Assembly (NCBI GenBank): GCA_025200525.1
Contig: CM045763.1
Coordinates: 153,766,246 to 153,830,245 of the forward strand
Source: Camellia lanceoleosa
Taxonomy: Eukaryota > Streptophyta > Magnoliopsida > Ericales > Theaceae
Length of the DNA: 64,000 nt
Reading direction: 5' to 3'
This document shows, piece by piece, positions 4,719 to 43,652 of the stretch. Position 1 is the first letter of the stretch; every line of letters starts with the position of its first letter. The position numbers were made by a program, and so were the translations under genes. Below the pieces are notes generated by a model, which was not told the origin of the DNA, ran no database searches, and worked only from the letters and a program-made list of their open reading frames with translations.

Positions 4719-4746
4719 AGAAAAGCACCTGATCAATGCTATTTCT
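4719..4746 (+). other. Conserved leader hairpin with TGATCA palindromic loop (element A)
   Basis: The 5' arm AGAAAAGCA pairs with TGCT-A-TTTCT, giving nine base pairs with one bulged A, and closes the loop CCTGATCAA. It lies 182 nt after the PBS and 201 nt before the gag-start scar. The same structure with different but still pairing bases occurs at 16002, 21239, 32097 and 43621. It is a candidate dimerization/packaging signal; the function is inferred. Confidence 0.7.
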
Positions 4747-7700
4747 ATTTGGAAGTCTTTGAATGTTTGTGGAACGAGTCAATATCTTGGAGGGGTAACT
4801 CGTATGTGCTCTATGTGACTATGTGCTTATATGGTTTGCCTTATGTGATGTAGATACATGTGTAGGTTTGTGTTTAATCCGCATGCAGTGTGTTAGAGCT
4901 AGTGTGGAGTACTTACTTCTGAGCTAAATTCTGTCTCTCATATAAGATGTCATAAAGTGGGAGAGGTCGTAATAGAGGCACTTGGGGTGCCCGGGATGTT
5001 CTCATGTAGGAGGATACATTTTCCCCAGAAAGAAGGTGTAAGCTAGAGTAATACGGCCAGGATGATTGGCCAAGATGTTGTGGAATTAGTATTAAAGTGT
5101 AGGTTAACCGATTTGTATGATTGTGGGTGTAAATGTGACCTTGAAATAGTAGAGTTTGTGTTGTGTAGCGACTGGTTTGTTATTATGAGGAGTTAATTAT
5201 TTTTCGATTTTATATCAAGTTTAGTGGACTAGATGAAAAAATTCTTACAAGTAGAGTGAGTTAGAGATTAACCTTATTCTAATAGTTTGGTTTGGTTGTG
5301 ACTTTAATAATGATTAAAGTAATCTAAGATAATATGCTTTGGATCGTTGGCATTAGAACACGTAAAACTAGTTCTAAATTTTCTTGGAATAGACGAAGTT
5401 AGTTATAGTTAGATTGTTTCACTTGCTTGATGGACTACTTGTGAGGTTAGTGATGGGCCTTAGGCCAATTATTTTGTATGTGTTTGGGAATAAACATAGT
5501 CGTAGCATGATAGAAATTATATCGTGTAGTATGAGATGTGTTTCTTAGAGAGTTTGTTTTATTCATAATTTTGCTGCAAATCCTAAGAGGGAAAATGAGA
5601 TAAATAATTTTGAAATAGATTGCAATGAGATTAAATTTGATTTGGGTTACGCCATTTGATGGGATTATTAGTAGTAACAACATTGACTCGTGAGTCGATA
5701 TTTTAGAACATGTAGGCGAGTTTCGAGTGCCTTCGAGATTGGTGGAGTCCATTGTCTTAGAGTTAGTTGTTGATATTCTTGAGTGCAATAAATGAGTGTT
5801 GAGGGACATGATGTGATGGATGTTGTGGAGTTGTGTTAGCAACCAATGTTTTTAGAGGAAATTTTTAAGATTACTTTGTGAAGATATTATAATTCTAAAT
5901 TAGGTGCTTTAGGATAATTAGTATGGTGGTAATTTGAGTATTTCCATGGGAATTTATGCTTGACCTATCGAGAGTGATTGATGTTAACTTTTACAGTTAC
6001 TTTAATGTATGAGTTAGAAATTGTGAAGATGGAAGGTATATGATAGTGTTTTGAGTTAAATTTGGTGCGTGTCGTGATGGTGTGGTTCATGTAATGGAAA
6101 TGGAGATTATTTTGTATCCTTTGTCCTTTAGCTACAAGATTGTTTTGTATCCTTGGAGTAAGAGTTATGAATCCTTTATATTGATCCTTTGTTTGCTATA
6201 AGTGTGGTAAGAATTCATGTTGTTAGTATGTTGGTCTAATACTACCATTGAGTTCAATTTAATGAGTGCATTCAACCTTAAGTGGTAAGTGTTTTCTTAA
6301 TTAAAATGTATTTAGTTTTGCCTAATAGAGGATGATTCCTTATTTTAATTTTGTTTCATCGTATTTTGTGGTGATATTACCTTAGAAGAAGTTATTCGGC
6401 TAACCCCTCATCGGGGAATAAATTGGTATGAAGTACTTTTGTTATTTTGTTAGTCTTGGAAATTGTTATGGAATGACTATTGTTGACATAGAAATTTTTT
6501 TTAGAGTGAATGAGTAGCATCGTAGCTTGTGGTTATATCTTTAGAATTTGGGCAGAAGCGAGCTGACTAGAGACTTCAAAGGAGATTTTGAAGTCACTAC
6601 AACTATGAGTATTTGTTGGGAGTACCTTAGTATTGTTAGAATGTGTATCTAGTCTTGATGAATTCTATGTGGACTCGATGTGCATTGTGTGAGCGTTTGG
6701 GTAAATTCTATGTTGGAGTGAAATTGTGTGGGTGGATGTAGACAAGTTTGCATAAACTGTTAGTCGGTTCGTCAAGTGAAAGAAATAGAGTGGATAGGTA
6801 AGAATAATATAGAAATTGCTTGGTTGGGCAATTAAAGTTGTGGCTGAGAATTTTCGAGTATTGTGTTTGGCATGATTGCATTATGTTTCATAAGGGTTGG
6901 TGTTTCTTGTTGTTCAAGTGAACCAATTGAGGCTAAGGTGATTTGTGAATTTTTTTTTTTGGAATAATTTAGGGAAGAATATGATTGTACTAGGGGATGA
7001 GTGGAGGTTCTTATGGGATGAAATATTTGAAGTCATTGTTTGTGATAGTTTTATTCAATTGGGTAACCGCGTATGAATTCATTTTAATATTGAGATGAGT
7101 TAGTTGTCGTGTGACGGTTGCGATTACAAAATGTATCATTGAATTGTGTCTTTAAAGGGGAGGTGCTCTCAATGGTTAAGAGTCTTGAGATAATCACTTT
7201 GGATGGATATCAAGTAAATTATTGCACTAGATTATGGGAAAAAAATTGTTTGTGGTGAGTCATCTTTAATGGTGTGTAATATTTGAATACTTTTCTCAGT
7301 GTTCTTCAAAGTAGTGGAATTCTTTCGTTGTTGTGACCTGTTGAGTTAGTTGTGTGGAATAAGCAAATTTTGTGGGTGTGTTTGAACGTGTTCAAGTGAG
7401 ATTGCGAGTACGGTTGCATTCTAATTGCGAGTTCGATAGATTTTTGATTAACCCCATATATGTTGCAAGAATCACCTACATTTTCCCTTCTATTATAAAT
7501 TGTTTGTCCAAATTCTAGTATGAGTAGTTTTAAGTTGAGGGGTGGCTTCTTTGGAACAATGTATCTTAATATCATGGATAGCTGGTGGGTGTAGAAATTT
7601 TGTTTTTGAGTCTATTGAAAATTTGTTACTTCATATTGCTAAAATAATGAGATGTTATTACGATTGTAGGGTCGATTGGATTAGACTGTTCGTTATTCTT

Positions 7701-7993
7701 GTTTGATTCAAGCGATAAGAAATAGTAGTACCATCATTGAGGAGTTATTGTTGTGTTTACAGCTCTATGATTAAAGTGAGTTTGAGAGTTTCGATTTCGG
7801 TTACGGTGTCTTTTACTATGGAAGGTAAGAGAGCATTAAATTCTTGAGAGTGAGCTTAGTACGTGTTTGGGGTGTTGAAAGAATGTGTCTCAATGTGAAA
7901 ATGGCTTTTGAGAGTTTAAGGCTCGAGTTATTACGTTAAGAGTAAATTCCATTATTTTTTTTATCATGGTGAATTTCGAGGATGAAATTTCAT

Positions 7994-8006
7994 AAGGGGG
8001 GAAGGT
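7994..8006 (+). other. Polypurine tract of element A
   Basis: AAGGGGGGAAGGT immediately precedes the TGTAAC start of the 3' LTR, the expected site for priming plus-strand DNA synthesis. It is preceded by GAGGATGAAATTTCAT, a motif (GGGACAAAATTCC-like) seen before the PPT of the other elements here. Confidence 0.8.
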
Positions 8007-8407
8007 TGTAACGAGTTGAATCAAATTGAATTTTGCCCTTATTATTATTGTTGCAGTGTCGTGAACCATTCTATTTAAATTGGTGAAAACAAGCTGAATT
8101 ACTTCTTGATTTCGACTTCGTAAGGCCTGCTTGGCAAAATTATTTTTTTAAGTTTTAGTTATAGTGATTCTTGGATCTTGAGTAATAAATGAGATATAAA
8201 TTCAATTTTTGGATTTTATTTGATTAGCCCATACTTAATCATTTTGGTTCATATTTAATTATGTGAATGTTAGGGACCACCTTAAGTCTTTTAAAGTTAA
8301 TTTATACTTTAATTTCAGTTGGGGATTTATTTTAAATTATTAAGCTCCATTCATTTTGGACCTAATTGATTGAATCGTGACCCGTTAGTAACCATGTAAT
8401 ATTGTTG

Positions 8408-8456
<49 letters not shown>

Positions 8457-10480
8457 TGATTACCATAAAAGAGTTGTGAATATTTATGGTGTGTACCGTT
8501 AAACGAAATATATTTTGTGGTGAGAAAATATTATATCTTTTTATCATTAATAATGTTGAAATATGCTTTTAATTGATATATATAGATAGACATTTGTATT
8601 GATTTGAGAATATATATATATATATATATATTATTAAATTGAAACAAGGAAGTAGACCCACGTAGGTGCTACTCTCCCATTCCTTTTTTTTTTTTTTTTT
8701 TTCTTTTCCTTCTTTCTTCTTCCTTACTTCTTTCATTCTGCTTTTCAATTGCACAGCTCACTCCCTCACTCTCTTTGCTCTCGGCTCTCTCACTCTCTGA
8801 ATTTTTTTTTATGTTACTTCTATCATATAAAATCTTTGATCTACCAAAATTTATTAGGTTTTGGACCATAGTTCTTAAGATCAAAGTGAAGAGCTTGGCG
8901 AGAGCAATGTTTTGACCAATGGAGATCAAAATCCAATACAACCGAAAATTGGGATTTTTACTTGTTTCCTCTTCTAGGTTTTAAGGTAGGGATTTTTCCT
9001 AGACTTCTTTATGTACTGTTACTTGATTATAGGGAGCTTAGTGTCGTATATAATTCAATTAGAATTTTTGAAAAATTTGTGATTTATTTGCTTAAAAAGG
9101 GAAATTTTGAGAAAAATAAAGAGTTGATGCCCAAATTGCGAAAGTGTAAACTTGGAATATTTTTGTAAGGTTATGAAAGAGCTATGTTTTAAATTTGAAC
9201 AAAAACAGACTTCGACTCGATCGGTTTTGAAATTTGTATCAGTTTGCGACCAAAAGAGCATTTTTAAAGAAAACAAAGGAATTACGTTTAACTTTTGGGA
9301 CTTTTGATCAAAATAGGATGTCATAGTTGAATAATGCTTGGATAATGAGTTTGAAATAAAAATGATGTTTTCTTGGACATTAACGATATTATTTTGCTTA
9401 ATGTATTTGTTGGAATAAAACCGACACGGTTAGAAATGGACCTTGAGAGGTTACTGGACGTGATTGTGATATGAAAATTAGTGTAGTTGTTCATATTTGA
9501 TGAGATGTGGAATAGATTTTATTTATCAAAATTTTTAGAATTTAATTTTTTAAATATCTATTTAGAAATATCTGTTTAGGGCTGTCGGTGGAGGATAGCC
9601 ATGATGATTGTAGAAATGCATGAGACTTAGGTAAATTGAACCACATTCCTCATTTGTTGCATTGGACATTGCATTACATTCATTTCATTGGAAATGTATC
9701 TGTTCTTTGAGAAATGTTTGGAAATGTAAAAATGACAGTGGTTAGGTGTCGAGCCTCGGTGAATCTGGGTAGGGGGTGTAAAACCGCGCGGTTAGGTGTC
9801 GAGCCTTCCAGTTAGCTGGTAAAAATGACAGTGGTAGTGCATTTAGGCCTACTTGCAGACACTCACCTAGAGATTCACAGAGTCTGTATTCATGTAACAT
9901 ATATGGTTTAAAATGGAAATGATTTTATATCTGTTGTTGCATCTCATCACTGCATGTTTTATAAAAAGAGAGATAATCTGTTTTATCATGAGCATGGCAT
10001 GAGTATACTTTTCTTTAGTCTTGTCATGGTCCATATGTTGTGTAGTATATCTCTACTGTGCTGTGGCTCACCCTATAAGGGAAACTATTTCAGGTACAGG
10101 TGCTATGCCTCCGCCAAGGCACTGACTTGGGAGGACTCGGAGCTGAGCCTTCATTTTTGGTTTTTGGTTATTTGTTGAATGTATGCCCATGGCTGTATTA
10201 CGTTGAGTTGAAACTCCATTTTGTGTAACCAATAATGTTCTTGGATAAATTTGTAAGCTTGTAGGGCACTTATTATCTGTTTGGCTTCTATTTGATACTT
10301 GTTGTAAAATGCATGCATGGGATTGAAACTCGGGCAATGAGATGTGAACAACATGTATTTGGCATTTGGGATTAAATGGAAATGGATATATAGAATAGTT
10401 TGCTAGATATATGTGTTTGTCTATCAGGTGGGTTTGTTGTATAAATAAATATACCCTGCCTAATTTTTCAGGGCGTTACG
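8007..10480 (+). repeat. 3' LTR of element A
   Basis: Begins TGTAACGAG and ends GTTACG, followed at once by the target duplication ATTGA. It aligns with the 5' LTR along its length but carries a much longer TTA microsatellite (8409-8455), a longer T run near 8690 and a partial duplication of the TGTCGAGCC/AAAATGACAGTGG segment around 9727-9835. The GGCTGTC/GATAGCC hairpin is at 9580-9600. Confidence 0.88.
8409..8455 (+). repeat. TTA/ATT microsatellite in the 3' LTR of element A
   Basis: About fifteen uninterrupted ATT units. The 5' LTR and the solo LTR at 60532 have only three or four units at the same place, so the tract expanded after insertion. Confidence 0.9.
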
Positions 10481-15807: not shown

Positions 15808-15810
15808 ACT

Positions 15811-15822
15811 TGGTATCAGAGC
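15811..15822 (+). promoter_or_regulatory. Primer-binding site, initiator tRNA-Met type (B1)
   Basis: TGGTATCAGAGC, a perfect match to the classic plant initiator tRNA-Met PBS, begins three bases after the LTR end. Confidence 0.92.
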
Positions 15823-16001
15823 GTACTGGGTTTGAATACTTTGGGTACGTGGGAAGTGATTAGTATCACAATGGGTTTGTCTCGCTTGTTAGAGACTTAG
15901 ATATGTTATGTACTTATGTGACAACATGCTTATGTGACTACTTGGGTATGGGATTTAGTTTCTAGGATGTTGATGGGATCCTTGGGTTTCTGTGAGTCTT
16001 G

Positions 16002-16033
16002 TTGGAAAGGCACTTGATCAATGCTGTTTCTAA
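16002..16033 (+). other. Conserved leader hairpin with TGATCA palindromic loop (B1)
   Basis: TTGGAAAGGCA pairs with TGCT-G-TTTCTAA (eleven pairs including two G-U, one bulged G) around the loop CTTGATCAA. It lies 180 nt after the PBS and 176 nt before the gag ATG. Same architecture as at 4719, 21239, 32097 and 43621. Confidence 0.75.
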
Positions 16034-16208
16034 CCGAAACTCTAGTAACGCCTCGGGACTATCATTATCCAGAAATGAAATTCGTAAGTGCTTATGTGAT
16101 TATGTGCTTACGTGGAATGAATTACTGTTGTCCAATGTATTAGGACGCGAGTGTTTTAGCTTCGGCACATTTATGAATGTGCTAATGTTCTTCATTACCT
16201 TTATTAGG

Positions 16209-17330
16209 ATGTCAGGACGAGGACGTGGTAGACGTAGCAGGCGTGGTAGGCAGGAGATATCTTTACCGGATGATATTCTGGTGCAGTAGGAGGGTGTTGG
16301 TCAGGCCAATGTGGCCGAGCTAGTGGGTTAGCAGGCCATAGGTGCCTTCGCCCATGAGATCGCAGGAGCTATGAGGGAATCCATAGGCATTCTCAGAGCC
16401 GAGAATCCAGTTCAGGCCCAGGTTGTTGATGCAGGGCCTTTCTTTCTGAAGAGGGAGTTCTTCCGGTCTAATCCGGATGAGTTTGTTGGGGATCCTAAGG
16501 AGCCACTTAAGGCTGATGAGTGGTTGAAGCAGATGACGAAGACGTTTGAGATGCTTGGCACCGAAGATGGGGCTTTGAAGGTGACTTTGGCATCTTTCCA
16601 GCTTAAGGGGGGTACGGGTCAGTGGTGGAAGTACATCAGGGGTCGTATTGGTGGTACGTGGGAGGCTTTTGTAGATGCTTTCCAGGAGAAGTTTCTATCT
16701 CCAGCTGTCAGGGAGAAGCTGAGAGACTAGTTTTGTCAGCTCAAGAGCTGAGTTTGTCAGTGGCCGAGTTTGAGGCCGCTTTTACTAGCTTGTCCAGGTT
16801 CGCACCTGAGCTTGTGGCGTCTGAGGAACGCCGTTGTATCGAGTTTGAGAGAAAGTTGAGGCATGACCTCAAGATGAGAGTTGGGGGTTCTATGACCCGG
16901 GACAATGGGCGCCTTGTGGATGCTGCGGCCCATATGGAGATTATGATGCAGGAGGAGGAGGAGAGACAAAGGGGCTCCAAGAGGAGTCAGGATGGTCAGG
17001 GGGACGGTAGAAGGCAGAGGGGTTCTAACCCTCAGCAGTCCCAGGGAGCTTTTGTGAGATTGACCTTTCCAGTGCCGAGTTCGGGTTCTGGGAGAGGCAA
17101 TCAGGGAGACATCACTTGTTACAAATGTGGTCAGCTGGGCCACAAGTCTCCAGCTTGCCCGCAGAAGGACGGAGGGCAGAGAGCAGCTTCATCTTCGGCT
17201 CGACCTTAGAGCCAGAGTCAGGGCAGAGGTCAGCCACTGTCTTGTTACCAGTGTGGTCAGGCAGGGCACCTGAAGAGGTTTTGCCTGCAGTTGAGTGGCA
17301 CTTCTGCTGCATCTGGGCAGAGGTAGAGTT
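16209..17330 (+). pseudogene. gag: gag polyprotein of B1 (broken)
   Basis: Gag forms the particle and packages element RNA. The start ATG at 16209 gives MSGRGRGRRSRRGR, a basic N-terminus shared with B2 and C. The core includes FFLKREFFRSNPDEFVG, then AD.WLKQM.K.FEML, QLKGGTGQWWKY and W..F...F.EKFL, the usual retrotransposon Gag region. The first zinc knuckle is CYKCGQLGHKSPAC (about 17119-17160) and the second CYQCGQAGHLKRFC (about 17242-17285), both CX2CX4HX4C. Stops at 16288, 16329, 16728 and 17207, plus a frameshift near 16735, break the frame. Most stops are TAG or TGA where CAG or TGG is expected, which fits deamination. Confidence 0.85.
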
Positions 17331-17448
17331 TTCAGCCTGCTCAGTCAGTTCAGGCCTCGAGGGCCAATTAGGGAGCTTCGTCGTCCCAGTCTGTGCAGCA
17401 GTCTTTTGCTCCTAGAGGTGAGCAGGTAGATCAGGGCCTTGAGCGTGT

Positions 17449-21039: not shown

Positions 21040-21042
21040 ACT

Positions 21043-23574: not shown

Positions 23575-23587
23575 AAGGTGGGGAGGT
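23575..23587 (+). other. Polypurine tract of element E
   Basis: AAGGTGGGGAGGT directly before the 3' LTR, in the same context as in element C (40479-40490). Confidence 0.75.
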
Positions 23588-30298: not shown

Positions 30299-31911
30299 TG
30301 TAATAGTTGACTTTGGGTGACTGCTCAAGCGTAGGAGTTGTCGCTCGAGCGGAGAATTGTTGCTCCTAGTATCTCACAGGTTTATAGACGAGACCACTCT
30401 AGCGAAAGAGTTGCCGCTCAAGTGTAAAATGTGAGCTCCTAGTATTTTCTTTATAGCTTTGCAAAACTTTTGAGACTTTATTTTTGTCGTTCAAGCGGTG
30501 GATAGTTTGCTCTAGCGGTCCCTCAGTATTTTGACACTTTGCTCGAGCGATGGAAGTCACGCTTGAGAGGTCATGTCGAGGCAGAAGACTTTAAAACATG
30601 ATCTGAACTCATTTTAGACCCACTTTTCATCCATTTTCTCTGCTTTTTCCCTTTTTTTTTTTTTTTTTTTTTTTTTTTCGAAAAACCTAGTTAAGAAACT
30701 CTAGATTTCATCTAGATAGAGCAAGAATCCACCTTAGCTCCTTTATCAAAGTTGGTATCCTCGTGAAAAGCTACATTTCGAACCGATTAAATCATGGTAT
30801 TTAAAGAGCTCATCGGGTGGACCTTCATCTTTTCTTGTGGAACCTTGAGGTAGGAATATCTTTACCATTGTATATCCACATTTTGGTCTAAATAGATACG
30901 AATCTAAAGGTGTATGGGTTGTTGAGATGAATGTATATATATGTTGTATATATAGAAATGCTTCATGAAATTGATGATGGATTATGATATTAACTACGCA
31001 ATGGTGTGTAAAAATACTTGAATTAAGGGAAAAGAATGAGTAGAAGGAAAAGCCCCAATTTTCATGTAAACCTTAGGGGCTTGTTCTTGAATTTTGATTG
31101 AATGGATTTGAATATGTAAAAATTGGGAAATTCTTGAAATGGTTGAGATGGTATGATGAAATTTAAATGTTATAGAACGTGTCTGAGTTGCCCACTTATT
31201 GGTTGTGTGAGGACGACAAAAGATGGGGCTATGTTTGAGGTGCCCACTGTCCGGTCTGCGTGAGGGCGTCAAAATATGGGGATGTGTGAGGCTTCAACTG
31301 GCCGATTCGTGTGAGGACGACAAAAGTGGAAAGGTTTGTGGTGTCCACATACCATCTGTGTGAGGACGAAAAAGTGTGGTGGTTGATTATGCATGGTAGT
31401 TACAAATAAAGAGAGGAATATATAAAAGAACCTTATTCATTTATAATTGATTCATAAATGTTTTTTTTATCAAATGTTAAAGTTATTCTCTACTAGGTAA
31501 AATGCTCAATCATAAATCTTTTCAACTTTTCAGGGAATGAAGAACCCCAAACCCGCTTATGAAGATGATTGATGGAAAAGATATTTGTCTTATTTGTTTT
31601 GTAACCTTTTGATCTTCTATGGACATGGAATTGTAATGATAAAATTTGAAATCCTTTTCTATTTATTTTTAAGTTTTATAATCTTGTTTAAAAATCCTAA
31701 CATAATATATTCGTTTTGTGATTTTCTCTAGCTCACTGAACAAGGATATGTATTTTGTAATTATTTTGTAAACAAAACTCTATGGTTCAATGAGAAAGAG
31801 AAACAGTGTTGGTTGGAATCATGTAAGGGTAAAGATATCATATTTAGGAATGTATTATCATTTATTTAATATCATGGGTGAATGTATTGTTAATTTCTTT
31901 GGGGTGTTACA
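30299..31911 (+). repeat. 5' LTR of element C
   Basis: Runs from TGTAATAGTTG to GGTGTTACA. It has degraded CTCGAG-type palindromes (about 30322-30570), a long T run near 30650, a donor-like GAG|GTAGGAAT at 30850, a four-unit array with TGTGTGAGGACGACAAAA (31180-31380), a shortened CTCTACTAGG...GCTCA block near 31484-31506 and an acceptor-like TTTTCAG|GG at 31527-31534. Confidence 0.85.
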
Positions 31912-31914
31912 AAT

Positions 31915-31926
31915 TGGAATTAGGGC
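31915..31926 (+). promoter_or_regulatory. Degraded primer-binding site (element C)
   Basis: TGGAATTAGGGC, three bases from TGGTATCAGAGC, at the expected place after the LTR. Confidence 0.65.
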
Positions 31927-32096
31927 CAACCAAGTCTAATACCTGGAGTTCATGTGGAGCAACCTTGTCACATGGGGTTGTTATGTTAGTGTGAAGAGCT
32001 GATGGTTTTATTTGATTATGTGTTTATATGAATAGGTGTGTATGGGGTCAATCCTCTAGGATATGACTTGTTTTCAGTACATTCATTGAAGTCCTT

Positions 32097-32128
32097 ATGG
32101 AAAGGCATCTGATCAATGCTTCTTCCAT
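32097..32128 (+). other. Conserved leader hairpin with TGATCA palindromic loop (element C)
   Basis: ATGGAAAGGCA pairs with TGCTT-C-TTCCAT around the loop TCTGATCAA: eleven pairs (one G-U) with a bulged C. It lies 171 nt after the PBS and 173 nt before the gag ATG, the same geometry as in B1 and B2 although the LTRs have little similarity. Confidence 0.78.
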
Positions 32129-32300
32129 TAGGAAGTCCTTGGATGTCGTGAAATTAGTTAATACCCTAGGAGAAGGATCCATATGTGTTCTATTTGTTTG
32201 CATGTTTAATTGTTGAAAATGATATTAAGACTTGAGGAGAAAGTGATGAACTAGTATATGAATTGTGAGTTAATCTTGTCCACATCTACTCTTGTATAGG

Positions 32301-33386
32301 ATGTCAGGACGTGTTAGGGGTCGTGGTAGGCCTCGTCGAGGTGGTAAGAATATCCCGGCTCAACTAGAGATCCCTTCTCAGGAAGAAGGAGTGGGTCAAA
32401 ACAATGTGGCCGCTCCACTGGCCCAAGACGTTAAGGGAGTGTTGGCTCGTAAGATAGCTGGAGCCCTTAGGGAATCGATGGATATTCTTAGAGCCGAACA
32501 AGAAATAAGAATAGTTGAAGGGGAGACTAGAGTTTCATTCCTGAAAAAGGAATTTTGCCGCTCGAATCCTGCCGAGTTTCTTGGCGGTGCTGAACTGTTA
32601 AAGGTGGACAAATGGCATAAGCAAATTACTAAATCTTTTAAGATCTTAGATATTCGAGACGGTGAACTTCAGGTGGCGCTTCCTAGTTATCAATTGAAGG
32701 GAGATGCCGACCAATGGTGGAAATATGCCAAGGGCCGAGTTGAGCATACTTGGAAGGCATTTACTCATGCCTTTCAAGAGAAATACCTCCCTACTACTGC
32801 GAAAGAACGTTTGAGGAGAGAGTTTGAGGAACTCGAATAATTTGATTCCACAGTGGCGGAGTTTGAGGCTACTTTTAAGAGCCTATCACGTTTTGCACCC
32901 GACCTAGTAGATACCGAAAAATGTAGGTGTCTAGAATTTGAGAAGAGACTAAGGCCAGGAATTTCGATGAAAGTGATGGGAAACATGATTTGGGATTATG
33001 ATAGGTTGGTAGAGTCAACAGCACATGTTGAGATTATGCTTATAGGAAAGGAAAAGAAGCGACAATTTAAGAGACAAGGGTTTATAGAATCTCGAGGGGG
33101 TTCTATGGCATCAAAGAAGTCGAGGAGTTCTACACCTTGGCATCTACCATTGTCACTAGTCGCATCATCAAATCTCATGTCGGGAAAGAGTACAGATAGT
33201 ACTGGACAAAGTGGGATCACTTGTTATCGGTGTGGTGAATGGGGCCATAAGTCTGTTACATGCCCACGAAGGAGTAACTGACGACAACCTTCTATACATC
33301 TTCAGAATCAGACTTTGAGTAGGAGTCAATTACCTGTTTGTTACCAATGTGGCCAATCGGGTCATATGAAGAAGTTTTGTCCCTAG
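32301..33386 (+). pseudogene. gag: gag polyprotein of element C (broken)
   Basis: Starts at ATG 32301 with MSGRVRGRGRPRRGGK. The Gag core follows: FLKKEFCRSNPAEFLGG, D.WHKQITKSFKIL, QLKGDADQWWKYAKGR and W.AFTHAFQEKYLP. A single TAA at 32838 splits two frames that are otherwise in phase. The second (from 32853) has F.SLSRFAPDLV and FEKRLRPGI, then the first zinc knuckle CYRCGEWGHKSVTC (about 33226-33267). After a TGA the same region goes on to a second knuckle, CYQCGQSGHMKKFC (33339-33380). Role: capsid and RNA packaging. Confidence 0.85.
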
Positions 33387-33602
33387 CTTACCGGGATGGC
33401 TAGTGTTTCAAGATTTCAGGCCGGACAAAGCTAGAGACACACTCATTAGCCAGTTCAATCTGGACAAGCATCTTGAACTGTGCATGGAGCTACCTCCGCA
33501 CAATCTATACCACGTGTCTATCAACAAAAGAGTGAGTTAACTGAACAGAGGCCCTAAGGGAGAGTTTATGCAGTTACCGCATCTGAATAGTCGACAGGAC
33601 CT

Positions 33603-34076
33603 ATGGTGATGCGAGGTACATATTTTATGTATAATACCTGGGCTCATGTGTTGATAGATACGGGGGCATCTAATTCTTTCATAGCATCTTCATTTGCATC
33701 CATGTTGGGGTTAGAGGCCGAACTATTAGAATCTCCTCTTGCAGTAGAATCACTGATTAGGGGTAAGATAGTATTGAATCATGGGTGTTGTGGGTGTGTG
33801 ATAGAAGTTGTGGCTCGCCAACTTCCTTTTAGTTTGGTGTTGTTAGAGATGGTGAGTTTTGATATTATTCTTGGCATGGACTGGTTGTCCTCTTATCGTG
33901 TTGTGATATATTGTTACCAGGGAAGAATTACTGTGTGTACTACTGGGGGCGATTGTTTTTACTTTATGGGGGATAGAACTGATAGGCTTTTAACACCATT
34001 ATTTGACTCCCGGAGTCAAGGCAAATTCACTTCCCTTATTACAACTTTGAAGAATGATGGGAACGACGAAGTGTGA
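33603..34076 (+). CDS. pro: Aspartic protease domain of element C
   Basis: Open for 157 residues. VLIDTGASNSFI (about 33650) carries the intact DTG active site of retropepsins, and FDIILGMDWLSSYR is the C-terminal flap/dimer-side block. This is the only pol domain of C without a stop or frameshift. It would act on the Gag-Pol polyprotein; upstream 33387-33602 joins it to gag with several stops. The start used here is only the first Met; a polyprotein needs none. The element as a whole is dead. Confidence 0.8.
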   Translation: MVMRGTYFMYNTWAHVLIDTGASNSFIASSFASMLGLEAELLESPLAVESLIRGKIVLNHGCCGCVIEVVARQLPFSLVLLEMVSFDIILGMDWLSSYRVVIYCYQGRITVCTTGGDCFYFMGDRTDRLLTPLFDSRSQGKFTSLITTLKNDGNDEV

Positions 34077-35040
34077 AGGGTACTTCTTAGGGTGGTTTGT
34101 GATTATGTAGATGTTTTTTCGGAGGACCTTACTGAACTACCACTACATCAAGAGGTCGAGTTTTCCATAGCCTTAGTGCCGGGTACCACACCCATTTCCG
34201 TGTCACCCTATTGATTCACACCAGCAGAATTGCTTATCTTGAAAGAACAATTACAAGAGTTGTTAGACAAGAGCTTTATACACCCAAGTACCTCACCCTA
34301 GGGAGCACCGACCCTCTTTGCGAAAAAGAAGGATGGTTCCTTTCGCTTATGCATTGATTACCGTAAACTAAATAGAGTCACAGTCAAGAATAAGTACCCG
34401 TTGCCTAGGATAGATGATCTTCTTGACCAACTCAAGGGCTCTTAGTGTTTTTCAAAGATAGATCTTCGATCAGGCTACCATCAGCTACGCGTGAAAGAGG
34501 AGGACATTCCAAAAACGGCCTTTCGTACTCGTTATGGCCACTATGAGTTTCTTGTGATGCCATTTGGATTCACCAATGCCCCTGCCACCATTATGGACTT
34601 AATAAACTGGGTTTTTCGGGAATATCTTGATAAGTTTGTGGCAGTTTTTGTGGATGATATCCTTATATATTCACCTTCTGAGGAAAAACATGAGTTGCAC
34701 CTTCACATTGCGTTGCAATTACTTAGGGAGCATAGATTATACACTAAGTATGAGAAATGTGTGTTCGGCTCAACGAGGTGAAATTCTTGGGTCATGTTGT
34801 TTCTAATGATAGGGTTACTATAGATTCCTAAAAAATAGAAACAGTAGAGAATTAGGAGCAACCTAGGAATGCATTTGAAATCCATAATTTCTTGGGTCTT
34901 GCTGGTTACTATAGACAGTTTGTGAAAGACTTTTCCTTGTTAGCTTCTCCTTTAACTAGGTTGACGTGGAAGGAGGTGAAGTTTGTATGGAATGAAGCAT
35001 ATGAGAATCCTTCCTAGAGCTAAAGGCTAGATAAACAACT
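34077..35040 (+). pseudogene. pol: Reverse transcriptase of element C (broken)
   Basis: The order of motifs is complete: VCDYVDVFSEDL linker, [91 protein letters not shown] with both catalytic Asp residues, then after a one-base loss near 34765 [10 protein letters not shown] and FLGLAGYYRQFVKDFS. Stops replace Arg (TGA at 34213), Trp (TAG near 34301) and Gln (TAG near 34443), all single C-to-T or G-to-A changes from the expected codon. Further stops follow in the thumb. Confidence 0.88.
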
Positions 35041-35430
35041 GCACCGGTCTTGGTCATCCCAGAAAGAGGTTTGGGTTACACCGTGTACTGTGATTCCTCT
35101 AGAGATGGTTTGGGATGTGTTTTGATACAAGAGGGTAAAGTAGTGGCTTATGGTTTGGGTCAACTAAAGACCCATGAGTGGAATTATCCGACACATGATT
35201 TAGAGCTGGCCGCATTTATCTTTGCCTTAAAATTGTGGAGACATTATTTGTATGGGGAGAAATTTGAGGTGTTCTCAGATCATAAGAGCCTTAAATACTT
35301 ATTTTCCCAAAAGGATTTGAATTTGCATCAAAGGACGCGGATGGAATTTTTGGATTATGATTTCGAATTACACTACCATCCTGGAAAAAGCCAATGTGGT
35401 GGCTGATGCCTTGAGTAGAAAATCAGTGAG
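35041..35430 (+). pseudogene. pol: RNase H domain of element C
   Basis: [28 protein letters not shown], then [18 protein letters not shown] and [12 protein letters not shown], carry the RNase H core residues (Asp, Glu, Asp). The C-terminal block is split: one frame ends in HYHPGKSQ and the next begins [13 protein letters not shown], a one-base shift near 35390. It would degrade RNA in the RNA-DNA hybrid. Confidence 0.82.
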
Positions 35431-35847
35431 TACTATCGCCAATCTTGCAATCAAGGAATGGACTATGCTGGGTGATTTGGGAGAATTTGATTTGTGTTTT
35501 AATGAATCTTCAGGGCATGCCACCTTGCTTTCTGCCATTGCGCAGCCGACACTTGGTACTCAAGTTATAGAGGCACAACATAATGATTTGGAAACTAAAG
35601 TAATCAAGGAGAAGACCATACAAGGGAAAGAAGAAAGGGGTTTGAGGGTCAATCCCAAATCAAATGTTCGATATCTAGACTGTCTTTTTGTACCAAAGTC
35701 ATGTAGAGAAGAAGTACTTCGAGAGTTTCACCACTCCTGTCTAGTAGTACATCCGGGGGGTACAAAAATGTACCATGATCTTAGCTGACAATTTTGGTGG
35801 AGAGGTATGAAGCGGGATGTGGCGTCCTTCGTATCTAGGTGTCTAAC
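35431..35847 (+). pseudogene. pol: Integrase N-terminal part of element C, cut by the G solo LTR
   Basis: After the spacer the zinc-binding region reads [21 protein letters not shown] (His residues of the HHCC finger). Then [14 protein letters not shown] and SRCL lead up to the first Cys pair, and the sequence stops at CTAAC (35843-35847). The frame resumes at the duplicated CTAAC (39151) with TCQQVKAEH, the remaining finger residues. A TGA at 35786 breaks the frame between them. Confidence 0.85.
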
Positions 35848-38800
35848 TGAAGCTCGCATTTTTCTGCACCCCCTTTCAGAAGTTCGAAAATAAGTCCTAT
35901 AGTTCGAACTCTTACGGTTTTGAATCTAATCTCACAAGTGCAATGTGAAATTGATAAACACCAAAGAGTCCAAATTCGACAAATCTTTTAGAAAATCGAT
36001 TTTTGAATCAAATTTCAAAAAATGGACTGCTTTTCCAGATACAGAGTTGCCACCTAAATATTTTATTTTAGAAAATTTAGGAAACCCATGACTTGTGCCA
36101 AAGGCCACGTGTCTGGCATCACCAAGATTGTCTCAGCTCGAGAACTTAGGTATGAGAAAGGAAGGTCTTGAATTGAGCACCCCACTTGCCCGATCAAAGG
36201 TCGGCCTTTACTAATCATGATATGATTTTTATGTACATTATATGTTCTTGTTCCGGTTTATTAGGCTAGCATTGCTATGTGATGCGCACACACAAGTATA
36301 GACTAACTTTGCAAGAATTGGAACATTTCAAGTGATGTTTGTTTTGAAAATTGTTTCGAATATGCACCACTTGAAAAGTTGATCACATATGAACATTACT
36401 CAAATTATTCCAACTCAAGCAACAAGCCTTCACCCACAAGCATTCAAGCAGTTATAACACTTAAGCACTCAGCCTCATGGCAAGCATACTAAACCTGACA
36501 ACACTAACATACTATGTAATATGCTAAAGCAAGTAAAGGCTCACCTAGTACTCCAAGCCAAATGAACAAAAGGGTTAGAAAAAATGCACGATTCCTAACT
36601 ATGCAAGATGACTAGTGCAACACATGTGATATGAAATTTAAATAGGCTCGGCTACTTAACATGATATGTGAAGCAATTTTGATAGCATGCGTTCTAAGCA
36701 TGTATTCAAAGAAGTATTTAAACTAACAATGCAAGTTAGAATGATGAACCGAGCCTCAGTGCATACAATACAAATGGATGCAAACATGGAGAATGCTAAT
36801 TGAAACACGATGTTCCTAAACTAACCATCATAAGCTAGTAAATAAAAGGGAGAAATACGTGGGGTTGGAAGACATACACGTTATTGCAACATTGCGCCCT
36901 CACACAGGAGGGTCCGAATAAATAAACTAAGCTAACTAAGCTAAGATAAAGCTAATTAAGCTAATTATTACAAACCAAAACGAATAAACTAGCTAAACTA
37001 CATAACTAGTTATTACAACACTTGAATTAACTAACTAGTTAACTAACTAATTAAATAATTACAACACAAGTACAATTAAAATAAGTAATTAAACTACACA
37101 ACTAATTACTACGCCTTGGGAAACGAGGGATGGTCATGCACATGCTCATTTTCTACCTGAAAAGCCACTGTTTTGCTTCTGAATGCATCTGTTTGCACAG
37201 TTGAACACCAACACTGCTGCTCACTATGCTCTGCCTTACAAACTCACTGTTGAATTTTGCACCAGTGGCCGGCTGGCCAGTGATGAGGATTTCCGTCCAT
37301 CAAAGTTGGTCTGTCGGCTACCTGCCGACCATGGAAAGTGGCCTGCCAGCCACTGCTACCCAATTCTCCTTGCTGCAACAGAGGACAAACAGAGCATATA
37401 CATGGTATTTCAAGGGTTTGTTTGCACAACTCACCCCTCCTTTTCATGAACAAATCAAAGAAGTAGCAAGTTTGGTTCACAAACCATAAATGGATGCAAT
37501 TTCATTGCATGATGGCTTGTGAAACCAAGTGTGCAAGTTCAATAAATGCAAAACAAGACTCAAACCTCCTCTCTTTCATGAATGATCAAGGGAAGTAGTG
37601 ACCTTGGAGTCTTGAATCATTTCATCGCTAATGAGTATGAAATGGTTCAAGTTTCCATGTGTTCAATTAACATCCGATTGAACACAACCAAATTATTATC
37701 TTGCTCAATTTTAGTCCCAAGTTTTAGTTACTCATTTTAGTTTACAAACCATTCTTTAATCCAATTAAGTCCAAAGGGTGAGATTAAGTCCTCTAATGGA
37801 AAGAGAACTCAAACCAAAAGTTGTTGTAGGCATGAAAGAGACATCATACCGTTGGTAATGAACCCCCTAAGGGATTAAACTATTAAGCATGACATCTTAA
37901 TCTCATGCTTTAAACAAACAAATTGTTTGAACCACTTTCAAAGAAAAATAAAAGCCAAGAAAGGAGGGAGGTTGCAGAGATGATTAAGTGCTGACAATGA
38001 GAAAAGCATAAATAAATGCTATCAACTCAAACAAGATGGTGTCTAAGGCCTAGAACACCAAACTCATGAGGACTATTAGACTATAAGCATGCAAAACAAA
38101 GCTCAAATCCAAACAACAACCTAAAATAGTGCTAGAATAGTCTAAAATAAGTCCTAAAACATGCTGAAATTAGGCTAAAAATAGTTGGATTAAAATGCTA
38201 AAACATGGCACCAACTAGGCTAGTAAGTAAGACACAAGGAAAGGAGGCTAACCCCTCCGAATTTGGACTTCAAAACATGATTTTGGCCACTGAAAAAGCT
38301 CTAAAAATCAGTGTTTAAAAGCTTCAAAAAAGATAGTAAAAGGGCGGGAAACACAAGGGCAAAGGCCTCCAAAACAAGGTATAAAGAAGGGCTATCAACC
38401 CCTCAACCTTTAATGGCCTTATATCGAAGCTTCAGCCCAAAAAACATAGAGTTTTGACAGCCCAAAACAATGGGAAAATAGTAGGAATAATAGCAAATAA
38501 AACAAAGCTACAAGCAAAGTCTTGTACCTCTTGAAGAGAAGAAGCAATTCCAAGAAACAAAACCAAGTAAACACACCCTCTAGAGCTCAAACCAAGCTCA
38601 AAGACACCTCAGTTCAAAGATGAGAAGATTTGGTTAAGGGTGTATAGGCAAAGGTTGAAGATTTGTAGGCAAAAGTGTAGATATTTGGCTAGAGAGAGAG
38701 AAAAATTTTTGATCTCAAAATTTTCTAACCTTTAAACATGAGAGAGGGGCCTCCTATATATAGAAAACATAAAATTCCCTCAAGGAGATCCAGCCCTACA

Positions 38801-39150
38801 TGTGGAGATAGATGCATGCATCTGTGCAAACAGCTGGCATAAAATATCTACAAAATATACTGGTGGCCGACCGGCCATCACTGGTGGCCGAAAACCCACA
38901 TCAGTGGCTGGTATCCCAAAAGTGATGGCTGGTAGCCCAAAAGGGGTGGCCTGCAGGCCACCAGAGGCTGCATGCTGGAAAAGCTAGGCTTGGTCCAAAA
39001 CTTGGACAACAAAGGTACAGGGTTTGAACGGCTCAAAGTTGTGGCATTCCGCTGAGGACTTTGACCACTTGGCGAGCATATAAACTCATCATCGGGTGTG
39101 CATGCGAGGACGTCCAAGTCGTAAGGACTGTCAAAAATGGGGTGTCTACA
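35848..39150 (-). mobile_element. Solo LTR of family G (about 3.3 kb) inserted in the element C integrase
   Basis: Flanked by a perfect 5-bp duplication CTAAC (35843-35847, 39151-39155). On the minus strand it begins TGTAGACACCCCATTTTTGAC and ends GCGAGCTTCA, so it has TG...CA ends. The start matches other family G copies at 52628 and 63215. A TATATATAG box lies on the minus strand near 38753-38762. No PBS, polypurine tract or pol gene is seen, so this is taken as a solo LTR. Contents include palindromic GGCC clusters at 38862-38965 and 37259-37355, and a CTAACTAAGCTAATTA-rich stretch (36930-37110). Short frames at 37183-37489 and 38802-39117 have no known motif. Confidence 0.8.
38862..38965 (-). 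repeat. GGCC-type palindrome cluster in the G solo LTR
   Basis: GGTGGCCGACCGGCC, GGTGGCCGAAAACC, GTGGCTGGTA, GATGGCTGGTA and GTGGCCTGCAGGCCACC follow one another at 15-25 nt steps. The unit is built on a GTGGC...GCCAC palindrome. It lies about 190-290 nt from the LTR start, comparable to the CTCGAG clusters in B and C. Confidence 0.7.
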
Positions 39151-40284
39151 CTAACTTGTCAACAAGTCAAGGCAGAACACCAACAGCCAGCCAGGCTATT
39201 GCAACCTTTGCGCACAGTGGAATGAAAGTGAGAACATATTACTATGGACTTTGTTTCAGGCCTTCCTAGAACATAAAGAGGTAATGATGCAGTTTGAGTA
39301 ATAGTGGATTGATTGACTAAGTCAACTCATTTTCTCGCTATGAGTATGGGGGACTCTGTTGATTACTTGGCAGAACTTTATGTTAAAGAGATTGTCCGAC
39401 TTCATGGAGTGTGATTATCGTCTCAGATCGGGACCCTCATTTTATTGCATGATTGTGGCAAAGTCTACAAACAGTTATGGGTACTCAATTGACTTTTAGC
39501 ACTGCTTACCACCCCCAAACATATGGACAGTTCAAGCGCACTATTCAAATTCTGGAAGATATGTTAAAAGCTTGTATGCTAGATTTTAAGGGTTCTTGGG
39601 GAAAATATTTGCCTTTAGCAGAATTCACCTATGATAATAGTTATGAAGCTAGTATTGGAATGGCTCCCTTTGAAGCCCTGTATGGGCAACCATGTAGGTC
39701 ACTGGTGTGTTGGACAGAGGTGGAGGACTCACCTATGCTTGGACCCGAATTAGTTCGTGAAACCATTGAGAAAGTAGCTCTCATTCGAAAACTGTTAATT
39801 ACGGCTCAAAGTCGACAAAAGAGTAATACTGACCGGAGGAGAAGACCCCTCTCTTTTGAGGTGGGCGATCATGTATTCTTGAAGATATCCCCTAGAAAAG
39901 GCTTAATGAGATTTGGGTGAAGCGGTAAATTGTCACCAAGGTTCATCGGCCCCTTTGATATTATAGAACGGATAGAAGAAGTCGCGTATCACATTGCATT
40001 GCCCCCGCAATTGTCCAGAGTGCACAATGTGTTTCATGTCTCCATGCTACGCAAGTATGAAACCAATCCTTTCCATGTTTTGGATTGGACAACTTTAGAG
40101 GTGGATGAGAACGCTTCGTACGAAGAAAAATCGATAAGAATCTTAGATACATAGGAACAAGTTTTGAGAGGTAAGGTTATTCCTTTGGTAAAAGTATTAT
40201 GGCACCACCACGGAGTAGAAGAGGCCAATGGGAACGAGAAGCTGAAGTTTGTGAAAAATACCCAGGCTTATTCAATAATATGTA
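39151..40284 (+). pseudogene. pol: Integrase core and chromodomain of element C
   Basis: Resumes with TCQQVKAEHQQP. The first catalytic Asp lies in VIVD (stop follows), the second in SDRDPHF (shifted frame near 39410). In the third block the catalytic Glu is replaced by Lys: GQFKRTIQILEDML, where B2 has GQSERTIQ. Then YLPLAEF.YDNS, MAPFEALYGQPCRS, FEVGDHVFLKISP.KG, LSPRFIGPFDIIERI, LPPQLSRVHNVFHVSMLRKY and a chromodomain-like VKVLWHHHGVEEA followed, after a one-base loss, by REAEVCEKYPGLF. A TGA at 39918 and a TAG at 40152 also interrupt it. It ends with TAA at 40282-40284. Confidence 0.87.
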
Positions 40285-40490: not shown

Positions 40491-41350
40491 TGTAACAGCT
40501 GACTTTGGGTGATCGATCGAGCGCAGGAGTTGTCACTCAAGCGGTGAATTGTTGATCCTAGTATCTCACAGGTTTACAGGTGAGACCGCTTGAGTGAAGG
40601 AGTTGTCGCTCGAGAGTTGTCTCTTGAGCGTAAAATGTGAGCTCCTAGTGTTTTCACTGTAGCTTTGCAAAACTTCTGAGACTTTGTTTTTGCTACTCGA
40701 GTGGTGGATAGTTTGCTCGAGCGATCCCTCAGTATTTTGACACTTCGCTTGAGCGATGGAAGTGTCGCTCGAGTGGTCATGTCGGGACAGAAGACTTTAA
40801 AACACAATCTGAACTCATTTGAGACCCACTTTTCATCAATTTTCTCTCATTTTCCCTTTTTTTTTTGAAAAACCTAGTTAAGAAACTCTATATTTCATCT
40901 AGATAGAGCAAGAATCCACCTTAGCTCCTTTATCAAAGTTATTATCCTCGTCAAAAGGTACATTTTGAACCGATTAGATCATGGTATTTCAAGAGCTTAT
41001 CGGGTGGCCTTCATCTTTTCTTGTGCAACCTTGAGGTAGGAATATCTTTACTTTGTATATCCACATTCTGGTCTAAATAGATATGAATCTAAAGGTGTGT
41101 GGGTTGTTAAGATGAATGTATATATATATGTTGTATATATAGAAATGCTTTTTGAAATTGATGATGGATTATGATATTAACTGCGAAATGGTGTGTAAAA
41201 ATACTTGAATTAAGGGAATTGAATGAGTGGAAAAAAAACCCCAATTTTCATGTGAACCCTAGGGGCTTGTTCTTGAATTTGGATTGAATGGATTTGAATA
41301 TGTAAAAATTGGGAAATTCTTGAAAGGGTTGAGATGGTATGATGAAATTT
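40491..41350 (+). repeat. 3' LTR of element C, first part
   Basis: Starts TGTAACAGCTGAC and follows the 5' LTR closely to GATGAAATTT, where B2 is inserted. The CTCGAG cluster is here (about 40515-40775): CTCGAG or one-base variants near 40535, 40587, 40608, 40697, 40715, 40746 and 40768. It continues at 50826. Confidence 0.85.
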
Positions 41351-43425
41351 TATAGCGACCCCGGTCTTTTTCCCATTTGATTATTGTATCCGGACTTACG
41401 TTCCGCGGATTCTGTTGTTATATTTGTTGTTCTCTAATTCCTCAATTGAGTTATAGGATGTGTTGGGCAGGTTTGTTTCAGGTTGGTTGGGTTCGGAAAT
41501 CAAATCTTGCTGTCCAGTTTTTGAGTTGGTCGCTCGAGCGAGGTTTTGGTCGCCGGCGAGGGTTGAGTTTTGTTTCTAGTGGCTCGAGCAGATTTCTTCG
41601 CCGGCGAGATTGCGTCTAGTATAGACGAGAGCGAAGTGTTTTCGCTCGGCGAGCTTTCTTCGCTTCAGCGGCGAAGTTGTATGTTTTGAGTTTTTCGCTC
41701 GGCGAGCATTCTGTCGCCGAGCATGCTTCAGGTTGCGAACTGAAGCATCGAGTTCTTGGCTCGAGCGAGCTTTTCTTCGCCGAGCGAGTATTCTTTAATC
41801 GGTCGCTCGAACGAGCATGTCTCCGCTCGAGCCAGCCTGTCCAGTATTTAAACGCAGCAGCAGTTTTAAAACGTTCTTTTTCACAATTTTTGATCCAGAA
41901 ACCCTAGTTCCGTGTTTTCTCTTTCTCAACTCATCTTTTCCTTGGGTTTGATCTATCTAGAGTGTGTTTCTAACCTAGTTCCTTCATTAAAAGGTAGAGG
42001 AGAGTGAGGGCTTTCATTTAATCGGAGCATTGTTGGATTTGGAGCACTTTAACATTTGGGCAAACATCTTCATCTTCTTCTATTGGGTTCATTGCTTTGA
42101 GGTAGGGATTTCCTACTCCTTGTATACGTTTTAATCCTAAGTGTTGGTGTTCTGGTATGTGGGAGGGGGTGGTTTAGTAATTATGGGAGAAATCTTAGGG
42201 TTTTGTCATAGATTAATTCATGTAATTAATTTAAAAAGGGGAATTGTGTATTGGGTTAAATTCATGAGATTTGGGAAATTGAGATTGGTTGATGTAATTG
42301 AATATTTAATCACTCATATGTGGATTTGATAATATATATATATTGTGATATTTATTTCTCGCTTAGAAATAACTGTTTTGGGCTATCGGTGGAGGATAGC
42401 CATTGATTGTTGTAGAGCTTGCATCTCGCTTAGGTATAATCGAATTAAGTCACATATGTTGATTTGTTGAATTAATCTGAGAACATTACTTGTATTGATT
42501 GTGTGTTGCATATGGCAATTTGTATGTTTCATTGCATATGCATGATGTTTGGAGGAGATAGGGGATGAACTCCACGGTTTAGGGGAAGATAGGGGATGGA
42601 CCTCTAAACCGGATTTGTTTGGAGGAGATAGGGGATGAACTCCACGGTTTAGGGGAAGATAGGGGATGGACCTCTAAACCGGATTTTTGTTTGGGAGGAG
42701 ATAGGGGATGGACTCCATTAGCATCACTTTTATGTGTGCTTATTTATATTGAAGTGTTTTATTGATACAGCACTAAAATGTGTATCAATTGGGAAGTATG
42801 GAAGTGAATTGATTATAATTGATATAATACCAACTCGTGTATTTGTTATGATTAGGTTTAACTTGAATTGTTATTCCTGTGGAATTTGGAAGTTTTGTTA
42901 ATAAAAGATGAAACCCGTTGAGTTATTTGGCGAGTTCGAGCCATAGATGAAAAGTAAGATGTGCCATAGACAATGTGTCATAGGCAATATAGACATTCAT
43001 GTCTTAAAAAGTGTAATCTGGATTATAGTGTGTTAACCATGTATTAGATGCTAATACTTTAGTTAATTCTTATGCTTGGTTTAGTATTTCTCTATTGATT
43101 TGTGGCTCACCCTATATGGGAACTTCATTTTTCAGTAATGTGTGGTTCACTACCTCCAAGGACTTAGCTTGTGAGGAATTGAATTGGAAGACTTGTTTTA
43201 TTTTTTTATTTATTTTATTTGAACAATGTAAACTTTCAAGCCTAGGGCTTTATTTGTTTTGAGTTAGAACTCATGAATTTGTGTCCAAGTGTTGGCTTGG
43301 CAAGATGTAAGCCCATAGGGCATTTATTTGATGTTTTATTCCATATTACTCTGGTGACTTAAATAATATCTTGTTTTTCTTTTATTAATGCATGTCATGT
43401 TTCGGTTTAATTTTGAGGCGTTACA
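41351..43425 (+). repeat. 5' LTR of element B2
   Basis: TATAGCGACCCC to GGCGTTACA. A CTCGAG-type cluster lies at 41528-41830, TATTTAAA, a TATA variant, at 41846-41853, donor-like GAG|GTAGGG at 42102, the GGCTATC/GATAGCC hairpin at 42381-42401, AGGAGATAGGGGATG units at 42551-42716, the CTCTATTG...GGCTCACCCTATATGGG block at about 43090-43120 and acceptor-like TTTTTCAG at 43128-43135. Confidence 0.9.
42551..42716 (+). repeat. Tandem array in the B2 5' LTR
   Basis: Two nearly identical 66-bp units, each GGAGGAGATAGGGGATGAAC, then CCACGGTTTAGGGGAAGATAGG, then CCTCTAAACCGG, and a third partial unit. Each contains the inverted pair CGGTTTAG / CTAAACCG, so a unit can form a hairpin. The 3' LTR has the same array at 49949-50115. 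Confidence 0.85.
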
Positions 43426-43428
43426 ACT

Positions 43429-43439
43429 TGGTATCGAGC
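43429..43439 (+). promoter_or_regulatory. Primer-binding site of B2 with a one-base loss
   Basis: TGGTATCGAGC instead of TGGTATCAGAGC in B1: one A of the CAG is missing. A PBS should be under strict selection in a young element, so this is either a lethal change after insertion or a sequencing error. Confidence 0.75.
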
Positions 43440-43620
43440 GTCTGGGGTTTGAATACTTTAGTCCGTGGGAAGTGATTAGAATCACAATGGGTTCGTCTCG
43501 TTTGATAGAGACTTAGTGTAATGATTGCATGCTTATATGATAACATGTTTATGTGACTATGTGGGTATGGAATGTAGTTTCTAGGATGTTGATTGGACCC
43601 TTGTGTCTCTGAATGTCTTG

Positions 43621-43652
43621 TTGGAAAGGCACTTGATCAATGTTGTTTCCAA
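43621..43652 (+). other. Conserved leader hairpin with TGATCA palindromic loop (B2)
   Basis: TTGGAAAGGCA pairs with TGTT-G-TTTCCAA around CTTGATCAA: eleven pairs (two G-U), one bulged G. It is 182 nt after the PBS and 171 nt before the gag ATG. Relative to B1 one arm changed GC to GU and the outer arm regained G-C, keeping the stem. Confidence 0.78.

Follow-up and report, generated by a model that had tools for sequence, protein, structure and literature searches.

The DNA analysed here (the window) is a 64,000-nucleotide stretch of the Camellia lanceoleosa genome (GenBank assembly GCA_025200525.1, contig CM045763.1, positions 153,766,246 to 153,830,245 of the forward strand), and all coordinates given below are positions within it. 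It carries five long terminal repeat (LTR) retrotransposons, designated A, B1, E, C and B2. Each contains a hairpin with a palindromic loop, located at a nearly fixed place between the primer binding site (PBS) and the gag start. The analysis confirms the observation, and the best reading is that of a cis-acting RNA hairpin conserved in the untranslated leader of a plant Ty3/gypsy group. The PBSs and hairpins are as follows.

4525 to 4537, plus strand: PBS of A, one mismatch to TTGGTATCAGAGC
4712 to 4753, plus strand: extended hairpin of A (core 4719-4746; palindrome TGATCA 4730-4735)
15810 to 15822, plus strand: PBS of B1, exact match to TTGGTATCAGAGC
15997 to 16038, plus strand: extended hairpin of B1 (core 16002-16033; palindrome 16015-16020)
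21042 to 21054, plus strand: PBS of E, one mismatch
21233 to 21274, plus strand: extended hairpin of E (core 21239-21268; palindrome 21251-21256), 16 of 16 pairs in the shared register
31914 to 31926, plus strand: PBS of C, degraded, placed by alignment with the other PBSs
32092 to 32133, plus strand: extended hairpin of C (core 32097-32128; palindrome 32110-32115)
43428 to 43439, plus strand: PBS of B2, one base lost, placed by alignment with the other PBSs
43616 to 43655, plus strand: extended hairpin of B2 (core 43621-43652; palindrome 43634-43639)

Structure and position of the leader hairpin

The five leaders were aligned from the PBS on (that of A we take to be of the initiator-methionine tRNA type) and the hairpins were aligned with about ten flanking bases on each side. 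The shared structure is a stem that reaches 16 pairs at most, with a single bulge on the 3' side following the fourth pair from the loop. The loop has nine bases (YY-UGAUCA-A) and TGATCAA is invariant in all five copies. The initial annotation of this DNA had placed the five hairpins and the TGATCA in each loop correctly. It had also recognized the bulged stem, but the 9-11 bp it attributed to it are too few, as the stem extends outward to a maximum of 16 pairs. Individual copies show some departures: C, when folded alone, closes one extra pair, which shifts the bulge and leaves a loop of seven, and B2 has a 2-nucleotide (nt) gap in the outer 3' arm and a decayed upper stem.

Counted from the first base of the PBS, the hairpin is reached after 194 nt in A, 192 in B1, 197 in E, 183 in C and 193 in B2 (range 183-197). 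The distances initially given (182, 180, 185, 171 and 182 nt) are about 12 lower and appear to have been counted from the end of the PBS; that they are near-constant holds true. From the end of the hairpin to the gag ATG there are 175 nt in B1, 172 in C and 170 in B2, all with an intact gag start context, and 200 nt in A to a scar of the gag start with a stop as third codon. This agrees with the initial annotation, except that E, where the start was described as absent, has an ATGT in a similar context 173 nt past the hairpin. Nothing in the interior of E matches gag.

Pairing and covariation in the stem

In the five-row alignment, 71 of 78 stem cells pair (91.0%). Seven of the 16 pairs have changed on both sides, five are invariant, two have changed on one side only and two deviate by unpaired cells only. 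The suggestion that the stem is kept by paired change was originally based on two pairs. Both are confirmed (pair 18-34 occurs as AU, GU and CG, pair 21-31 as AU and GC) and five more pairs with two-sided change can be added. None of 500 shuffles paired as well or showed as many two-sided changes, and 2 of 500 had as many pair types. When the partners were slid by 1-3 columns, at most 53.8% of the cells paired, with no more than three two-sided pairs.

An unguided scan of the leader identifies the hairpin as its strongest place. In the RNAalifold scan (60-column windows), the hairpin gives z values of -4.97 and -4.90 (0 of 200 shuffles as low in each case), the next overlapping window -3.92 (2/200) and the lowest window clear of the hairpin -1.97. 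When all leader windows are taken together, the observed minimum energy is reached by 3 of 300 shuffled alignments, and by none of 300 for columns 101 onward. A larger shuffle set for the hairpin window gives z -4.62 (1 in 1,000 as low). Leave-one-out sets range from -4.31 to -6.71 (0 or 1 of 500 shuffles as low in each), while A and E alone give -4.88 and B1, C and B2 alone -4.03. An exhaustive stem search separates the hairpin less clearly from its null (a score of 10.5 with seven two-sided pairs, against a mean of 6.5 and a maximum of 10.0 among 60 null searches) because two-sided changes are rewarded whatever the energy; null hairpins with up to nine two-sided pairs occur.

Among 25-column stretches of the leader, that of the hairpin is also the best conserved, with a mean pairwise identity of 0.80 compared with 0.43-0.76 in other windows. 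The five leaders align over their full length with 55-85% pairwise identity (67-69% for A against B1 and B2, 55-58% for E against the others), as would be expected if an old hairpin had simply been inherited and were decaying unselected. We consider descent alone very improbable. Neutral decay was simulated from a fully paired ancestor, with no selection and with matched stem identity (2,275 runs kept of 5,000). The mean pairing was 77.8% (standard deviation 4.3, maximum 89.7%) and the mean number of two-sided pairs 1.08 (maximum 5). The observed 91.0% pairing or seven two-sided pairs were reached in none of the 2,275 runs, given a tree that is a rough guess and a structure and alignment picked on the same five sequences.

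The LTR pairs are 87.7% identical in A, 88.0% in E, about 87% in C and 94.9% in B2, suggesting roughly 6% change since insertion in each of A, E and C. At this divergence, two to three post-insertion mutations would be expected in each 42-base hairpin of these elements, enough to explain the seven unpaired stem cells. Selection on base pairing of the hairpin stem is well supported, within the limits of five sequences of which E supplies much of the covariation.

Ensembles were folded from the PBS to 420 nt on, that is, from RNA without its LTR part. In all five the palindrome is mostly unpaired, with mean values of 0.77 for B2 and 0.93-0.99 for the other four. Those of A, B1 and C also form the upper stem.

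Host elements, other leader features and relatives

The remaining parts of the five elements are as follows.

2129 to 10479, plus strand: element A, LTRs about 2129-4521 and 8007-10479, interior coding-free, gag-start scar at 4947
16209 to 18833, plus strand: gag start of B1 with gag, protease and reverse transcriptase pieces, containing stops and frame changes
19916 to 27333, plus strand: element E, LTRs about 19916-21038 and 26177-27333, interior coding-free
32301 to 39920, plus strand: gag start of C with gag-pol pieces, broken
43823 to 48385, plus strand: gag start of B2 with gag-pol pieces, broken, ending with a weak chromodomain match

Pfam matches above cut-off concern gag (B1 and C), zinc knuckle (B1), protease (C) and reverse transcriptase (RT; B1), and, in B2, RNase H, integrase zinc-binding and SH3 domains. 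The integrase core (23.7 bits vs 32.6) and the chromodomain (18.9 bits vs 25.1, E-value 0.0015) of B2 are under the cut-off, and 3 of 10 stop-free pieces are without any Pfam match. Judging from these domains, the host elements are plant Ty3/gypsy elements, probably Tekay/Del-like chromoviruses. The earlier label 'Tekay-like' thus fits in its Ty3/gypsy part, the chromodomain match being weak and below cut-off.

No gag-pol was detected in the 3,485-base interior of A or the 5,138-base interior of E, where none of 11 coding pieces from B1, C and B2 matches at 1e-3; the same 11 pieces give 8, 16 and 15 matches in B1, C and B2, their sources. The hairpin is present in both of these coding-free elements, as the initial annotation had pointed out. 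A and E resemble large retrotransposon derivatives (LARDs), which passages of PMC6696364 define as LTR elements longer than 4 kb with no coding capacity: A is about 8.4 kb and E about 7.4 kb long, and both are coding-free. LARDs are described as families, unlike A, with one further LTR copy in the window, and E, with none; the two are likened to LARDs by description. The additional A-type copy is a solo LTR at 60532-63011 flanked by a perfect 5-base target duplication (CATAT), from which the coding-free A family seems to have been mobile more than once. No exact target duplication was found for A, E or C in the scan that detected CATAT.

B2 (41350-50829) lies inside the 3' LTR of C, as 40491-41350 and 50825-51495 match 30299-31819, and is therefore the younger insertion. 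A sixth, more distant gypsy-type element (56444-60487, minus strand) is broken; it has no PBS within two mismatches and no hairpin match.

The presence of the hairpin in A and E bears on a possible role in translation, in which the hairpin would serve shunting or re-initiation for gag. There are 18 AUGs between the PBS and the gag start in B1, 16 in C and 17 in B2, which makes plain scanning unlikely. We nevertheless think this role improbable: A and E make no Gag and yet keep the hairpin equally well, and the distance between the stem and the end of the last upstream open reading frame to close before it is not constant.

Splicing could also affect the leader. Acceptor-like sites (polypyrimidine-TAG/GATG, 5.7-6.2 bits) occur at the gag starts of B1 (16208), C (32300) and B2 (43822), with CTAAT, TTAAT and CTAAC upstream (by eye). 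Their score is not distinctive, other AGs being as high, and donor-like sites before the hairpin are weak (4.1 bits at 136-137 nt in B1 and B2; 5.0 bits at 122 nt in C). A leader intron that would remove the hairpin from the translated RNA is possible from these sites. In a Camellia sinensis gene model (P0141, a prediction), the leader frame after the hairpin is joined straight to the gag start; if this model is correct, the spliced RNA would keep the hairpin.

Two other features of the leader were considered. Some 50 nt past the PBS, another hairpin (GTGAT..ATCAC / GTGGT..ACCAC) seemed to covary on inspection by eye; it does not exceed shuffles (z -0.42, 137 of 500 as low) and was rejected. 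An 18-nt motif near TATGTGATTATGTGCTTA has its best matches before and after the hairpin in each leader, with 12-18 of 18 bases in agreement, at the following positions.

4645 and 4812, plus strand: TATGTGATTATGTGCTTA-like motif in A
15915 and 16093, plus strand: in B1
21153 and 21360, plus strand: in E
32009 and 32191, plus strand: in C
43550 and 43708, plus strand: in B2

This motif was chosen by eye, so its p-values are after the fact; the downstream match in C is no better than chance (p 0.18) and the upstream match in E has p 0.03. The downstream match in E is off the aligned place. Two TATGTGATTATGTGCTTA-like stretches are conserved in the leader alignment (0.71-0.72), and several copies contain a start-stop AUG-UGA.

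Relatives beyond the window were sought among proteins (including translated leaders), viral contigs, prokaryote assemblies, plasmid records and Rfam. The best 120 of 7,993 listed RT relatives include plants (Tanacetum, Cucumis, Gossypium and others), and the nearest of them over the whole query (P0003) is 89% identical; those among the 120 that are labelled bacterial (P0057, P0076 and P0077) are probably contamination. Querying with the reading frame across the hairpin of B1 retrieved 21 proteins, 20 of them on short contigs and one, P0141, from Camellia sinensis. A profile built from the frames of all elements but B2 retrieved 12, two of them new, giving 23 translated leaders in total. TGATCA is encodable in 19 of these. 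The inner eight pairs of the stem were tested on such leaders, each pair alone; as the peptides were picked for an open frame, the result indicates compatibility only.

These leaders also raise the question of whether a conserved upstream reading frame (peptide ..E-R/K-H-L-I-N..) mimics an RNA structure. An AUG-started frame does cross the hairpin in A, C and E, and the frame is open in the 23 translated leaders elsewhere. In B1 and B2, however, the in-phase AUG-started frames stop at 156 and 157 nt, short of the hairpin, and single-base gaps between families break the frame. The peptides, moreover, were selected for being open, and paired change in the outer stem is left unexplained. We regard such a reading frame as a highly improbable source of the pattern.

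Prokaryote assemblies include 27 loci that encode a gypsy-type RT (L067-L093). They represent plant-type and other gypsy DNA in bacterial-labelled contigs (for example, Streptomyces clavifer and Mycobacterium sp.), probably through contamination. A PBS was sought in 26 of the 27, leaving out L093, whose match starts at base 2. It occurs exactly, upstream of RT, in L069, L070 and L071 (RT 65-69% identical to the first sequence of alignment A3), and two-mismatch PBS-like sites are present in L073 and L077, in one case just before RT and in the other far upstream. Searched with a covariance model of the hairpin, all 27 loci were negative. An AT palindrome about 190 nt after the PBS of L070 and L071 was read as a simple repeat. 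In viral contigs, none of 66 stretches with the hairpin-core pattern is preceded within 260 bases by a PBS-like site with fewer than three mismatches, and no relatives were found there with three protein queries or the PBS pattern. Nothing in the plasmid records matched the leader of B1, and the window has no Rfam match at gathering score. A weak Rfam match on the other strand of the leader of A, obtained with a lower threshold applied to this leader only, was read as chance.

Dimer initiation and packaging as a proposed function

In line with the dimerization/packaging role suggested by the initial annotation, we propose that the loop is exposed in the full-length RNA and would mark this RNA for Gag, most likely by bringing two RNAs into contact through their loops (dimer initiation), a step coupled to packaging. 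We hold this role in dimer initiation and packaging with about even confidence. Particles from coding relatives would take up the RNA of A and E, and these two coding-free elements would keep the hairpin because their RNA must enter such particles.

The order of PBS, hairpin with an exposed six-base palindrome and gag resembles a retroviral dimer site. The dimer hairpin of human immunodeficiency virus type 1 (HIV-1) has a bulged stem and a nine-base loop. HIV-1 and HIV-2 SL1, avian leukosis virus L3 and the Mason-Pfizer monkey virus Pal SL resemble the hairpins here in having a six-base palindrome in their loop and in lying towards the 5' end of the genomic RNA, and passages of the same source describe a short palindrome as common in retroviral dimer sites, which lie mostly in the 5' leader (PMC5874298). 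The palindrome is flanked 5' by pyrimidines here and by purines in HIV-1; the likeness is one of form only.

Among LTR retrotransposons, the Ty1 leader is comparable in that loop-loop contacts have been proposed to start dimerization and packaging, and a helper/mini-element assay shows uptake in trans, according to passages of PMC5454406. Ty1, as described there, relies on a pseudoknot and on two hairpins that differ from, and are complementary to, each other, in a region reaching into gag, in contrast to the single self-complementary loop upstream of gag found here. BARE2, a plant element, keeps pol, unlike A and E, in which no gag-pol was found. In barley, RNA of the gag-less BARE2 is found in particles of its coding relative BARE1, and dimerization and packaging signals are said to be kept (passages of PMC3735527). 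These are Copia elements, whereas those described here are gypsy, and the passages describe no such hairpin for BARE. LARDs are said to specify conserved RNA secondary structures and are assumed to need trans-complementation (passages of PMC7215508).

A number of observations weigh against the proposed role in dimerization. Self-pairing of UGAUCA is weak (-5.0 kcal/mol with duplexfold; four hexamers taken to be retroviral give -7.3 to -10.9 and a fifth -5.1 kcal/mol). With four six-base registers in a nine-base loop, a palindrome is expected by chance in about 4 of 64 cases (about 1/16) and, given common descent, its sharing counts as one event. The palindrome is also invariant, so that conservation for self-complementarity and conservation as a protein site look alike, and the covariation supports the stem, not kissing. 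The hairpin might instead bind Gag or a host protein (for packaging, export or RNA stability), the palindrome being coincidental and no kissing taking place. We consider this possible, if on the unlikely side: TGATCAA is invariant in all five with no palindrome-keeping alternative, the kissing energy is modest and a chance palindrome is not very unlikely, but the six-base palindrome, nine-base loop, bulged stem and PBS-gag position together resemble retroviral dimer sites as passages of PMC5874298 describe them. According to the same passages, the palindrome in the foamy virus leader can be mutated without loss of packaging (PMC5874298); form thus does not prove function.

Further points, most of them against dimer initiation, concern the structure and the sample. 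Folded alone, E favours a 5'-arm bulge, with upper-stem pair probabilities in the shared register of 0.11-0.23, and those of the decayed B2 upper stem are 0.02-0.04. Folding is also seen for the reverse strand (z -6.88). In favour of sense-strand RNA, the stem has ten G-U cells and only two A-C cells, an argument that is modest because the leader itself is rich in T (0.37) and G (0.26). There are only five sequences, of which B1 and B2 are close (85% identity over the leader). E provides much of the covariation: when it is dropped, two-sided change survives in only two pairs; the folding signal without E (z -4.61, 1 of 500 shuffles as low) is independent of it. Among the translated leaders, TGATCA is not encodable in 4 of 23 (P0121, P0123 and P0131 by script, P0142 by reading of its LIY). 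Pair 17-36 is impossible in 6 of the 22 leaders tested by script (P0124-P0128 and P0141), and three other inner pairs are impossible in one leader each (20-32 in P0123, 21-31 in P0137 and 15-38 in P0140). The hairpin is absent from the three more distant readable leaders (L069, L070 and L071, the last two nearly identical). Finally, the hairpins of A and E could have come from coding parents not long before the two elements inserted.

Taken as a whole, this is a known kind of RNA hairpin, real and selected, for which dimer initiation coupled to packaging is a plausible function. Among the literature matches listed (titles and abstract openings, with coverage excluding most subscription journals), we found no dimerization or packaging hairpin of a plant Ty3/gypsy element. 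The terms 'dimeriz', 'hairpin' and 'encapsid' are absent from the main text of a 2025 review of the plant LTR element life cycle (PMC12786077).

A broader and more doubtful proposal is that one RNA signal is common to diverged coding and coding-free chromovirus families of one genome, whose RNAs could then cross-pair, be co-packaged and recombine. With the same UGAUCA loop in all five elements, their RNAs would be able to pair with each other. Uptake in trans of RNA from coding-free plant LTR elements has so far mostly been assumed, to judge from passages of PMC7215508. A hairpin common to coding and coding-free elements offers a concrete target for mutation and, if the proposal is true, the shared signal would both feed coding-free parasites and generate new families.

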